The notes under the pieces are model-generated. The model was not told the origin of the DNA. It ran no database searches and saw only the letters and a program-made list of their open reading frames with translations. From the IMG/VR virus record IMGVR_UViG_3300030419_005367, positions 1-64,000 of that record: DNA of 64,000 nt, one strand, 5' to 3'. Positions 26,772 to 31,827 of this stretch are shown here, one piece after another (the first letter of the stretch is position 1; each line of letters begins with the position of its first letter). Made by a program: the position numbers and the translations under genes. Source of the DNA: a virus.

Positions 26772-27245
26772 GTGTCAATACACAAGTACAGTAGCTGGGG
26801 AAGAACAAGAGGCCCGAAGAATATAACCGGCACAATCGGCGGCGCTGTGACGCTAGAAGCAAACACCAACAATATGCTCGGAAGTGCATCTGGTTATAAA
26901 CTAGTAGGGTATGCAACCCAAAATCAAAGATGGCTTCACGTTCTTGTTAACGCCGCAGACGATGATTCAACACCCGCTGCAATAACCGTGTTTGGATATT
27001 GTCACGCTTTTGAAAGGTGGTTTGAGATTGGAGCTTCCACGATGGACACTCCGATCACCGCAGATGATGCAAATATTGCACCAACAGCCGCATCGATACA
27101 AGCTGCCGATGTCGACACGAACGAAGAAGATCAAGTCCCTAGCCACAAAGAATACCGACGCTATGATATATTAGGAATAGATCGTGTTGCATTTGTTGGT
27201 AACGACGCTGAATCTAATGTATATGCCGCTTGTAGTACATTTTAA
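26772..27245 (+). CDS. Probable virion protein, first of a tandem pair
   Basis: A 157-residue protein with GTG start at 26772 after GAGGAGA at 26758-26764. It shares most of its length with the next gene: KY-SWGRTR-PKN near the N-terminus, then AITVFGYCHAFERWFEIGAS, then EYRRYDI-GIDR and a C-terminal SNVYAACSTF. Beta-rich, with no enzyme motif. It lies between protease and scaffold genes, so a capsid decoration or vertex protein is possible. Confidence 0.75.
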   Translation: MSIHKYSSWGRTRGPKNITGTIGGAVTLEANTNNMLGSASGYKLVGYATQNQRWLHVLVNAADDDSTPAAITVFGYCHAFERWFEIGASTMDTPITADDANIAPTAASIQAADVDTNEEDQVPSHKEYRRYDILGIDRVAFVGNDAESNVYAACSTF

Positions 27246-27267: not shown

Positions 27268-27744
27268 ATGGCAACATTTAACAAATACAATAGCTGGGGA
27301 AGAACGAGAAGCCCAAAGAATTTAGCCGGTGACCCGGGCACTGCAATAACACTACACGGACACGTCAATGCACTCAAAGCCGACTCTGCCGGCTACAAAC
27401 TTAAAGGAAACCCAACAGAGAATCAGAGATATCTGCACGTTCTCGTATGCGATGCCAATGGTTCCGGCACACCCGGGGCAATAACCGTGTATGGGTATTG
27501 CCACGCTTTTGAGCACTGGTTTGAGATTGGAGCCTCCACATTGGACACTCCGATATCTGCAGCTTCTGCGAATACTGCACCAACGGCTGCGACAATAACT
27601 GCCGCAAATTCAGGAAGAGCAGACGATTCTCAAGTTCCTAGTGATAGAGAGTATCGACGCTATGATATATGTGGAATCGACCGCATTGCTTTTGTCGGCG
27701 ATGACGACGAATCTAACGTATATGCTGCTTGTAGCACATTCTAG
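27268..27744 (+). CDS. Probable virion protein, second of a tandem pair
   Basis: A 158-residue paralogue of the preceding protein (MATFNKYNSWGRTR ... AITVYGYCHAFEHWFEIGAS ... EYRRYDICGIDR ... SNVYAACSTF). The closest parts include the central HAF-WFEIGAS segment and the last ten residues. Differences cluster in the 40-70 and 110-130 regions, probably surface loops. ATAGGAGTAG at 27254-27263 supports ATG 27268. Heteromeric use of two related subunits in one shell is a possible reason for the duplication. Confidence 0.75.
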   Translation: MATFNKYNSWGRTRSPKNLAGDPGTAITLHGHVNALKADSAGYKLKGNPTENQRYLHVLVCDANGSGTPGAITVYGYCHAFEHWFEIGASTLDTPISAASANTAPTAATITAANSGRADDSQVPSDREYRRYDICGIDRIAFVGDDDESNVYAACSTF

Positions 27745-28836: not shown

Positions 28837-30687
28837 ATGTCTGTACTTGATAAATTAACAGAAGGCATTGTTAATCGCGATCTCCAAAAGGAAGGTGCTG
28901 CTCTACTGAATAAGTGGGAGAAGACCGGTCTTTTGGAAGGAATTACCAGTGACTCACAAAAAAATGGAATGGCTGTCCTGCTTGAGAACCAAGCAAAAGA
29001 GCTACTTAGAGAGGCTTCCTCGATGGCAGCCGGTGATGTTGAAGGCTTCGCAGCCGTAGCATTCCCGCTTGTTCGTCGTGTATTCGGTGGTCTTGTTGCT
29101 AACGATCTTGTATCCGTTCAGCCAATGAGCCTTCCATCCGGTCTCATCTTCTTCCTCGACTTCACTTACGAAGGCCGCGAGGGTATTGTACAAGATCCGG
29201 GCGATTCCGTCTACGGCGGTAACGTGGTTGCATCCCAGTTGACTGGTGGTGTTACTAACATCACAGAAGAGGGTGGTGGTTTTTATAACCTCGCAAATGC
29301 TTATTCGCATGCTACCTCTTCGATCGCTCTCGACGAGTCGACCGCGACCGCAATCGGTTCAGCAGAAGAAAATCACGTTCACGATGAGCTTACCGACGCC
29401 GGCCCATTCACCACTGCTGGTGGTGTAACAATTAGCTCCCTTACGGCAGCACAAAAGAAGGTTCTTCGTTTTGATCCTGACATTCTTGCTGCTTCTGCTG
29501 GTACTGTTTCTCACCTTTTGGTAAGACTTTCCACTGCTAATATGAACACCATTAATCTCGATAATCTTAGCACTATCGATCTTAGTGACTCCGCTGGTAA
29601 TACACTTTACGGTATTTCCACTGCAAGAGTTGTTAGAAGACTAACACACCTTGGTTATTATGACACTAGTGGTAATAGTATCGTAGCTGGCTCCAAGACT
29701 AACTACATTAGTTTGTATGTTCAGTCCGACGCCGACAGTGCTACTCATGAGCTTGCAGGTTCTGACGGCACAGATGCACTTGAACTTCACGTTCCTATTA
29801 AGGACGCTATGGCTTCTTCGGACAATGTTGGTTCTGTGGTTGGTGAAGCTTCTTGGGCTCTTGAAGAGCCACAAGACGGAACTGGCAACGCTGGTAATGC
29901 AACTGGCAAAAACGAGATTCCTGAGATCGACATCAAGGTTGACTCTGTTTCCGTTACTGCAATGACAAAGAAGCTCAAGGCCAAATGGACCCCAGAGCTT
30001 GGTCAAGACCTTAATGCTTACCACAACCTCGACGCTGAGGTTGAGCTTACTGGTATTCTCTCTGAGCAGATCGCTCTTGAGATCGACCGTGAGATCCTCA
30101 ATGACCTCATCACTGGTGCAACTGCTGGTACTCGTTACTGGTCTCGCGCCCCGGGCCTTTTCGTAGACTCAACTGGTACTGAGCTTGGTGCTGCTTCGGC
30201 TGCTCCAGACTTTACTGGTACAGTATCCGAGTGGTACGAGACTCTCGTTGAGACAATCAACGATGTTTCTGCTCAGATTCACCGCAAAACTCTTCGCGGT
30301 GGTGCCAACTTCATCGTCGTTGGGCCTGAAGTTGCCAACATTCTTGAGTTCACAAACGGTTTCCGTGCAGACGTAACTGGTGATGTTGACCGTGGTACGG
30401 TTGGCGCAGTTAAGTCTGGTGCACTTAGCAAGAAGTGGGATGTATACGTAGATCCTTACTTCCCTCGCAACGTAGTACTCGTTGGTCGTAAAGGTGGTTC
30501 GTTCCTTGAGAGCGGATTTGTTTACGCTCCATACGTACCGCTGCAGGTCACACCTACTATCTTCGGTACCGAAGACTTCGTTCCTCGCAAGGGAGTGATG
30601 ACTCGTTATGCCAAGAAGATGGTACGTCCTGATATGTACGGTCTAGTAGTCGTTCGCGGCTTGCTTGGTGAGGAAGGCGCTAGCTAA
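28837..30687 (+). CDS. Major capsid protein precursor (gp23-like)
   Basis: A 616-residue HK97-fold capsid protein. Family landmarks are FPLVRRVFGGLVANDLVSVQP near 75-95, LPSGLIFFLDF near 101, and DSVSVTAMTKKLKAKWTPEL with LDAEVELTGILSEQIALEIDRE at ~370-430. Between these, ~120-350 is a large beta-rich insertion, making it longer than T4 gp23 (521). The N-terminus LLRE-ASSM near residue 59 looks like a T4-type protease site (L-x-E). Codons are strongly biased, as expected for the most abundant protein. GGAG at 28827-28830 sets the start. Confidence 0.95.
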   Translation: MSVLDKLTEGIVNRDLQKEGAALLNKWEKTGLLEGITSDSQKNGMAVLLENQAKELLREASSMAAGDVEGFAAVAFPLVRRVFGGLVANDLVSVQPMSLPSGLIFFLDFTYEGREGIVQDPGDSVYGGNVVASQLTGGVTNITEEGGGFYNLANAYSHATSSIALDESTATAIGSAEENHVHDELTDAGPFTTAGGVTISSLTAAQKKVLRFDPDILAASAGTVSHLLVRLSTANMNTINLDNLSTIDLSDSAGNTLYGISTARVVRRLTHLGYYDTSGNSIVAGSKTNYISLYVQSDADSATHELAGSDGTDALELHVPIKDAMASSDNVGSVVGEASWALEEPQDGTGNAGNATGKNEIPEIDIKVDSVSVTAMTKKLKAKWTPELGQDLNAYHNLDAEVELTGILSEQIALEIDREILNDLITGATAGTRYWSRAPGLFVDSTGTELGAASAAPDFTGTVSEWYETLVETINDVSAQIHRKTLRGGANFIVVGPEVANILEFTNGFRADVTGDVDRGTVGAVKSGALSKKWDVYVDPYFPRNVVLVGRKGGSFLESGFVYAPYVPLQVTPTIFGTEDFVPRKGVMTRYAKKMVRPDMYGLVVVRGLLGEEGAS

Positions 30688-30720
30688 TAGCTAACGACTT
30701 ATAGCCAATAGTCAATTTAC

Positions 30721-30759
30721 GCCCCGCCTTGGGAAACTAAGGCGGGGCTTTTTTGTTTT
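30721..30759 (+). terminator. Strong rho-independent terminator after the capsid gene
   Basis: A perfect 10-bp stem, GCCCCGCCTT (30721-30730) with AAGGCGGGGC (30739-30748), an 8-base loop and TTTTTTGTTTT. Confidence 0.93.
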
Positions 30760-30785
30760 ATGTGACTCTTTTGTTGATGATGGAA

Positions 30786-30794
30786 ACTATTTAT
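30786..30794 (+). promoter_or_regulatory. Candidate late promoter box ACTATTTAT
   Basis: The box lies 138 bases before ATG 30924, just after the capsid terminator, so it starts an independent transcript with a long leader. Confidence 0.6.
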
Positions 30795-30802
30795 AGGGAC
30801 AA

Positions 30803-30915
30803 CTTGAGTCAAATCTCCTTGGACGGGGCCGCTGTCCTTTGAAGAAGTTTTGACCGAAGCGGCTGGTCATTATTTCGTGATTGAATCAAGTTATTGCAAT
30901 AACCATATAAGGAGA
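30803..30915 (+). promoter_or_regulatory. Structured leader with complementary loops and anti-Shine-Dalgarno segment
   Basis: The outer stem is CTTGAGTCAA (30803-30812) with TTGAATCAAG (30881-30890), 9 of 10 paired. Inside it, hairpin A is GGAC/GTCC (30821-30837) and hairpin B is TGACC/GGTCA (30851-30869). Their 9-base loops hold GCCGCT (30828-30833) and AGCGGC (30858-30863), perfectly complementary. TCTCCTT (30814-30820) is the exact complement of the ribosome site AAGGAGA (30909-30915). A translational switch is inferred. Confidence 0.5.
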
Positions 30916-30923
30916 AATAAATT

Positions 30924-31745
30924 ATGGGAAAAAGAATAGGACGCAGAAGATTGGACAGTCTTTTGGAAAGAAATTATGACTCAACTGATGAGTGGGGGTT
31001 TGTCCGACCTCCAATGGTACCCGGACTACAACGCAATTTAAAAATTGTTGCTCTGGGCCAAATGCACGGTTGGGCACTTGAGGATTTGACGGATCTACCT
31101 CAAGAAGACGCAACGACGTCTATTTGGAGCGCTGACAAAGACTCAGGTACCGTCGTTTGTCTTGCTGGTGACGCTGACTTTACTGATGGCGCTATTACGA
31201 TGACTACTGGTGGTTCCTCGGGTAATCAGGTTGGTGTTATGTGCAGAGGTACACAATTTAACTGCTCTAGCACTAAAAAATGGTGGATTGAAACTGTGAT
31301 TAAGTGCGCAGATCATGATGCTAGTGAATTTTTCTTTGGTCTTCACGAGAGAGACGTTGATACAGACAGCTTTCATGTCGAAGCGGCAGCAGCCGGCAAA
31401 GATAGAATTGGCTTTGTAAAAGCGACACACAATGCCGATGCGGTTACTTATGCGTGCTCATCTAATGGTGATGGCACAATTTCAACAGCTTTAGATACGG
31501 CCATATCATATGACGCCGATAACGATGTTCTTGCAATGGGTATCCATTGGGACGGGGCTCAGTTGAAGTTTTATTCCGCGATTTCTGCGACCGGAACCGA
31601 TCCGGGTGCAATGAAGCTTAACACTACCGTCACAGCAAACATTCCTACCGACTCTAATCTGAGTCTTATGTTAATGTTTGAGAACGGCGGTGGTGCTGAT
31701 GAATCATTCGGCGTAAACTTTATTCGCGGCGCGTATGAGGTTTAA
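30924..31745 (+). CDS. Probable capsid decoration or head-surface protein
   Basis: A 273-residue protein. The basic N-terminus MGKRIGRRRLDSLLERN is followed by a beta-rich domain (~85-273) that could be a jelly-roll or lectin-like fold (KWWIETVIKCADHDASEFFFGL ... DVLAMGIHWDGAQLKFYSA). There are no catalytic residues. It has its own promoter, a long structured leader and its own terminator, right after the capsid gene. This is the arrangement expected of an abundant shell protein; the role is inferred. Confidence 0.75.
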   Translation: MGKRIGRRRLDSLLERNYDSTDEWGFVRPPMVPGLQRNLKIVALGQMHGWALEDLTDLPQEDATTSIWSADKDSGTVVCLAGDADFTDGAITMTTGGSSGNQVGVMCRGTQFNCSSTKKWWIETVIKCADHDASEFFFGLHERDVDTDSFHVEAAAAGKDRIGFVKATHNADAVTYACSSNGDGTISTALDTAISYDADNDVLAMGIHWDGAQLKFYSAISATGTDPGAMKLNTTVTANIPTDSNLSLMLMFENGGGADESFGVNFIRGAYEV

Positions 31746-31787: not shown

Positions 31788-31827
31788 AAACCCCCATTTG
31801 ATTTATTTCAGGTGGGGGTTTTGTTTT
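31788..31827 (+). terminator. Rho-independent terminator
   Basis: Stem AAACCCCCA (31788-31796) with TGGGGGTTT (31813-31821), a 16-base loop, followed by TTGTTTT. Confidence 0.8.

Follow-up and report, generated by a model that had tools for sequence, protein, structure and literature searches.

A conserved, covarying leader RNA with kissing loops, probably a riboswitch-like translational switch, precedes a putative capsid-surface gene in T4-like viruses

Translational riboswitches of the preQ1 and SAM-II type hold the Shine-Dalgarno (SD) sequence within the aptamer. The leader described here likewise brings an SD and an anti-SD together in one compact unit; it differs from them in its larger, three-way-junction fold and in having no match in Rfam. 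The purine riboswitch (RF00167) and its relatives have a similar layout, with an outer helix P1, two hairpins P2 and P3 in loop-loop contact, and the 3' strand of P1 as the likely switching strand. The same arrangement is seen at our locus, but here the loops are of 9 nt and kiss through 6-7 pairs, the junction sequences are unrelated, and the anti-SD lies inside the junction.

T4 phages also use structured leaders. Those of genes e, soc, 49 and I-TevI sequester the SD in plain helices, and the well-documented ones act on transcripts initiated upstream (PMC3014915). Our leader resembles them in belonging to a T4-group phage, in preceding a late gene (soc encodes a capsid-surface protein) and in placing the SD in a helix; in contrast to them, it forms a kissing three-way junction and is itself contained in the late transcript. 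The leaders of genes 32 (a pseudoknot) and 43 (a hairpin) are autoregulatory and bound by protein (PMC3014915). Like ours, they are structured, conserved elements ahead of a phage gene, but the fold is different here and the cargo proteins are interchangeable, making a body-specific repressor unlikely. According to a 2010 review, T4 had yet to yield a characterised riboswitch (PMC3014915).

The window that we analysed is a 64,000-nt stretch (IMG/VR record IMGVR_UViG_3300030419_005367, positions 1 to 64,000) of a 73.7-kb virus record. Its major capsid gene (28837-30687) encodes a product of the T4 superfamily (PHROG 138). The nearest cultured relatives, Microcystis phage Mel-JY01, Flavobacterium phage immuto and Rhodothermus phage RM378, are distant (about 35-46% identity); given that the 'Far-T4' group has RM378 as its reference genome (PMC4360716), we would place the virus of the window near this group. 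A terminator and the box ACTATTTA separate the capsid gene from the leader in the window, and the controlled gene that follows, with its own promoter box and its own terminator, forms a single-gene transcription unit. Upstream of the capsid gene lies an adjacent pair of paralogous genes of ~157 aa each (MSIHKYSSWGRTRGPKN.. and MATFNKYNSWGRTRSPKN.., at 26772-27245 and 27268-27744) with no PHROG match.

In the leader, the first-pass annotation of this DNA had described an outer stem, two hairpins with 9-nt loops carrying the hexamers GCCGCT and AGCGGC, and a TCTCCTT segment complementary to AAGGAGA. All of these elements are in place (Table 1), and TCTCCTT occurs only once in the 64-kb window; the hairpin stems are longer than the annotation implied, and it missed both the P1b extension, which carries P1 into the junctions, and an overlapping palindrome, GTTATTGCAATAAC (H4). 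The palindromic centre of H4 is kept in different versions among homologues (TTGCAA, TCGA, ACGT, AACGTT); a hairpin loop does not require such a centre, which may hint at dimerisation or at a DNA-binding site. We do not claim the hairpin around the start codon (H5), for which the permutation test gave only the p value in the table. The folding energy of the 129-nt leader is not exceptional (z -1.08), and therefore the single sequence could not decide whether the fold is real and comparison was needed.

Table 1. Features of the leader (30795-30923) and its surroundings, and other leader types
Feature	Position	Strand	Basis or remark
Intrinsic terminator of the upstream major capsid gene	30721..30754	+	Terminator scan: 12-bp stem (12 pairs, 9 GC) and T run
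Probable late promoter box ACTATTTA	30786..30793	+	Copy count in the window; box ahead of homologous leaders
Putative transcription start region, at the 5' edge of P1	30799..30801	+	T4-type late promoter spacing
P1 5' strand AACTTGA	30801..30807	+	Pairs with TCAAGTT; pairing, covariation alignment
P1b 5' strand TCAA/TC in J1/2	30809..30815	+	Pairs with TTGA/GA of J3/1; predicted ON fold
Anti-SD segment TCTCCTT	30814..30820	+	Complement of AAGGAGA
P2 hairpin GGAC/GTCC, loop L2 GGGGCCGCT at 30825-30833 (9 nt)	30821..30837	+	Compensatory changes GC/AU/UA/CG
Kissing strand GCCGCT in L2	30828..30833	+	Complementary to L3 in 92/92; three strand versions
P3 hairpin, loop L3 GAAGCGGCT at 30856-30864 (9 nt)	30844..30876	+	Four P3 pairs with many double changes
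Kissing strand AGCGGC in L3	30858..30863	+	Complementary to GCCGCT of L2
P1b 3' strand in J3/1	30879..30884	+	Predicted ON fold; pairing kept across leaders
P1 3' strand TCAAGTT, common to H4	30886..30892	+	Pairing, covariation alignment
H4 palindromic hairpin GTTATTGCAATAAC	30890..30903	+	Competes with P1 for GTT; palindromic core in homologues
Weak hairpin H5 CCATA/TATGG	30903..30927	+	SD in loop, start codon in stem; suggestive, permutation p 0.02
SD AAGGAGA	30909..30915	+	8 nt before ATG
Controlled gene, 273 aa; predicted basic N-terminal helix and concanavalin/lectin-like beta-sandwich	30924..31745	+	ORF; structure model and fold matches
Terminator closing the single-gene transcription unit	31788..31825	+	Terminator scan
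Second leader	L002:5935-6071, L013:2775-2898, L064:5855-5979, L280, L284-L290, L292-L296
Third leader type	L054:5785-5976, L055:3186-3377, L078:3875-4018

Among 80 contigs fetched by capsid-protein similarity, 8 carry the same RNA between the capsid gene and the next gene. The model of the RNA matches 9 sequences including the window at 80-114 bits (E 9e-13 or better), the same sequences having helped to build it. An initial DNA pattern scan returned a mixture of real and chance matches; given that its pattern fixed most of the loop bases, we ran a second scan with the kissing bases left free. This complete scan of viral contigs found 117 contigs, and in all 92 distinct sequences that match the free-loop pattern among the loci collected the two 9-nt loops are fully complementary. 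The element sits 3' of the major capsid gene in every homologue with readable context, and where both flanks are readable it lies between the end of the capsid gene and a gene starting MGNRRLG.., MGSRRIG.., MGKRIG.. or near variants.

BLAST searches with the leader and its region against 50,697 phage records gave no true match, and no genuine instance of the RNA turned up with the strict pattern in a genome collection covering 84,980 species of bacteria and archaea, the single bacterial-genome match (L278) being a chance one on inspection. Rfam 15, run over the whole window, gave no family match and only sub-threshold matches, mostly on the terminator. The open-access literature, including that on the uncultivated T4-related group, yielded no description of the RNA. 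The structured RNA has so far been found only in viruses, and it has no family entry.

In a model alignment of 92 sequences (82 distinct), which was fitted to the model's structure, 96.6% of cells are paired, compared to 85.5% after shuffling. P2, P3 and the kissing helix contain 221 double-change cells compared to 63.6 in shuffled alignments, and none of 500 shuffles reached 221. Sliding the alignment by one column drops pairing to 41-45%, and a MAFFT alignment of 43 sequences gives the same covariation picture. P2 and P3 vary freely, with compensation, and P1 varies mainly through G-U pairs, with rebuilt helices in L206, L107 and L027; 5.1 of the 7 P1b pairs are kept across leaders, compared to 2.3-3.5 when the strands are slid.

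The kissing strands occur in three versions among the 92 sequences: GCCACU with AGUGGC or GGUGGC in 81, GCCGCU with AGCGGC in 4, and a swapped version, GCGGCU with GGCCGC, in 7. Two kissing pairs vary without ever being mismatched, 38/68 between A-U and G-C and 37/69 between C-G and G-C; on a rough tree from the short alignment double-sided changes occurred at least seven times at the former and at least three times at the latter. The kissing-loop interaction proposed by the annotation was thus borne out with the kissing bases left free, and the covariation in related phages, whose absence it had named as evidence against the structure, stands far above the shuffled and slid controls. We conclude that the leader is a conserved, covarying structured RNA, represented by more than 80 different viral sequences.

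The alignment also bears on whether the element acts as DNA, for example as a recombination joint, a protein-binding palindrome or a packaging site. The several alternative palindromic centres of H4 and the swapping of protein bodies just downstream of a constant leader would suit such a role. However, G-U cells outnumber A-C cells 161 to 7, which argues that the sense RNA is the folded, selected molecule, and an element held at a fixed place between the promoter box and the start codon is what one would expect of a leader; a DNA-level element is highly improbable.

As the annotation had noted, the fold recalls the purine riboswitch in layout while the conserved bases of that class are absent. 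The RF00167 covariance model, which scores the junction core, finds no match at E<=10 over 30690-30960 and none at E<=1 in three homologous contigs. The junction sequences conserved here, ..GAA.. in J2/3 and UUCUCCU in J1/2, are unlike those of the class, and we rejected purine riboswitch identity.

T4-type late promoter spacing allows the start of a transcript to be placed from its box. In the window, ACTATTTA is present in 11 copies on the + (coding) strand and in none on the - strand, mostly just ahead of late genes, which suggests that it is probably the late promoter box of this phage. The positions given for it are 921, 10635, 15337, 19531, 27765, 30786, 31835, 34590 and 37693. A CTANTTA-type box (e.g. 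CTATTTA) also stands ahead of the homologous leaders; its usual distance from the CTTG of P1 is 6 nt, compared to 9 nt in the window. From this spacing the late transcript probably starts at or beside P1, in which case the RNA's own 5' end would belong to the fold.

A folded 5' end could serve the phage without any switching, by shielding the late mRNA from 5'-dependent decay and keeping the SD from inhibitory pairing. The placement of P1 at the putative 5' end, at a near-constant distance from the promoter box, is consistent with such a constitutive leader, as is the fact that the other late leaders of the phage are short. It would nevertheless leave the conserved anti-SD, the palindrome overlapping P1 and the loop-loop contact unexplained, and we consider it rather improbable.

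The promoter box bears as well on the possibility that the structure blocks read-through transcripts as in T4 e, soc and 49, with RNA derived from the capsid gene folding the SD away and RNA from the late promoter leaving it accessible. Inhibitory helices of this sort are present in the leaders of T4 e and soc (PMC3014915), and here too the gene follows the capsid gene. In the T4 e-type arrangement, however, the SD is paired only in transcripts begun upstream of the late promoter, whereas here the box precedes the whole element, so that a late transcript from the predicted start contains the structure too. With a strong terminator already standing between the two genes, we regard a read-through block as very unlikely.

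A purine-rich SD is present in all leaders listed. In 76 of 77 homologues, the best complement to the SD within the leader lies at the J1/2 anti-SD, UUCUCCU, or no more than 7 nt from it. The native J1/2 also beats shuffled J1/2 sequences, of which a median of 0.5% are as good. The anti-SD has a slight preference for the SD of its own leader over those of the others: the native duplex has an energy of -10.5 kcal/mol compared to -10.1 +-0.1 kcal/mol when partners are shuffled among leaders (p 0.0004, by a permutation that ignores phylogeny). Lineages with UUUUCUUC at the anti-SD have the SD GAGGAGG or AAGGAGG, and two lineages with AUCCUCC there have AGGAGG. The match of the SD to UUCUCCU is only weakly independent, since the SD has to keep its SD character in any case.

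A metabolite-binding riboswitch would have a conserved aptamer and a mutually exclusive expression platform; for the conserved structure seen here two competing folds are predicted, a possible switch. The OFF fold pairs the SD with UUCUCCU of J1/2 in 70 of the 77 leaders, the others being L038, L050, L183, L058, L085, L187 and L200. In L038 most of the anti-SD pairing is gone (-3.9 kcal/mol), and the mechanism may therefore not hold in all members. The ON-OFF difference is -1.7 +- 2.4 kcal/mol over the 77 leaders, calculated with the loops kept open for kissing and with tertiary contacts and pseudoknots left out; the kissing contact is possible in both folds alike. The fold, the kissing contact, the SD/anti-SD complementarity and the single-gene context come from sequence and comparison, and we infer that the pairings would be used as a switch, and in which direction. 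On this basis, the leader is probably a riboswitch-like switch that acts in cis on translation of the capsid-surface gene. The annotation had suggested a ligand- or time-sensing translational switch; the switch is the best reading, and the ligand or timing part can at most be surmised.

In the proposed ON fold, P1 and P1b would close the three-way junction, P2 and P3 would lie side by side with their loops kissing through 6-7 pairs, and GA(A) of J3/1 would hold the UUC of the anti-SD, leaving the SD free. In the OFF fold, UUCUCCU would pair with the SD (AGGAGAA) in a helix stacked on P2, and the 3' strand of P1 would be released into the palindromic hairpin H4. Given that the two predicted folds are nearly isoenergetic, a modest bias could set the output; candidates are a small molecule or ion, a phage or host protein, or the order of co-transcriptional folding. 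In a possible variant, the anti-SD captures the SD as a pseudoknot while P1 stays closed. We also entertain, more tentatively, a new riboswitch class. Its kissing three-way junction would respond late in infection to a metabolite, an ion or a factor from phage or host and would gate a lectin-like, interchangeable protein displayed on the capsid, with at least one other, unrelated RNA filling this role in sister phages.

The annotation had called the controlled gene 'decoration-like', a label that fits its position and the lectin-like beta-sandwich of the structure model and is plausible rather than proven. The model, of moderate confidence (mean pLDDT 63), predicts a short basic helix and a beta-sandwich, with best Foldseek E values of 3e-6 in the PDB and 9e-11 among viral models. 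A search with the surface protein found no relative in viral contigs and only weak matches of 28% in phages. Across homologues, the product combines a basic MGxRR-type tail with interchangeable, partly lectin-like bodies; once the first 25 residues are set aside, BLAST finds no similarity between the 11 groups into which the proteins fall. The locus thus appears as a variable capsid-display locus in which a constant basic tail is joined to unrelated bodies. RNAs that are 98% identical precede unrelated bodies (L145, L146, L156, L240), and only the first ~7 residues are constant. Given this near-identity, the RNA and first codons behave as a constant cassette with swappable cargo.

These comparisons weaken the annotation's other suggestion, autoregulation by a virion protein. 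In its remaining form, the basic N-terminal tail MGxRR(L/I)GxxR... would bind the junction or kissing loops and lower its own translation once capsids are filled. Indeed, the RNA and an arginine-rich tail co-occur in the homologues read, the net charge of the first 20 residues is +4.5 with the RNA compared to +3.0 in sister phages without it (in a hand-picked set), and T4 relatives use protein-bound leader structures (PMC3014915). In contrast, the near-identical RNAs before unrelated bodies make body-specific autoregulation unlikely, and given the few constant residues the ligand could only be the basic tail or another phage or host factor. The tails diverge after about residue 7, and a similar motif, MGTKRVGLAR, occurs in phages with other leaders. 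The tail remains a candidate, and autoregulation as a whole seems unlikely to us; a riboswitch-like translational switch is the reading we prefer.

Other leader types also occur (Table 1). The second leader, a structured RNA found at the same locus in sister phages and unrelated to the first, has covarying hairpins (GGGUAG/CUACCC, GGAUGGG/CCCAUC, GGGCGG/CCGCCC) and an invariant GGACATGATTATA...AAGGGAGGGTTT end, and it precedes genes starting MG(T/S/N)KR(V/I)GLAR or close to it. In the third type, the 5' arm of a hairpin carries an SD-like AAGGAG or GAGGAG just upstream of the real SD and is possibly a ribosome decoy. The use of different structured RNAs by different lineages ahead of one kind of gene supports its regulation at the RNA level.

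The kissing-loop RNA probably sets when, or how much, surface protein is made. Why phages control proteins of the virion surface through RNA can be put to a direct test here, where a constant regulatory cassette of promoter, RNA and first codons precedes swappable capsid-display proteins.
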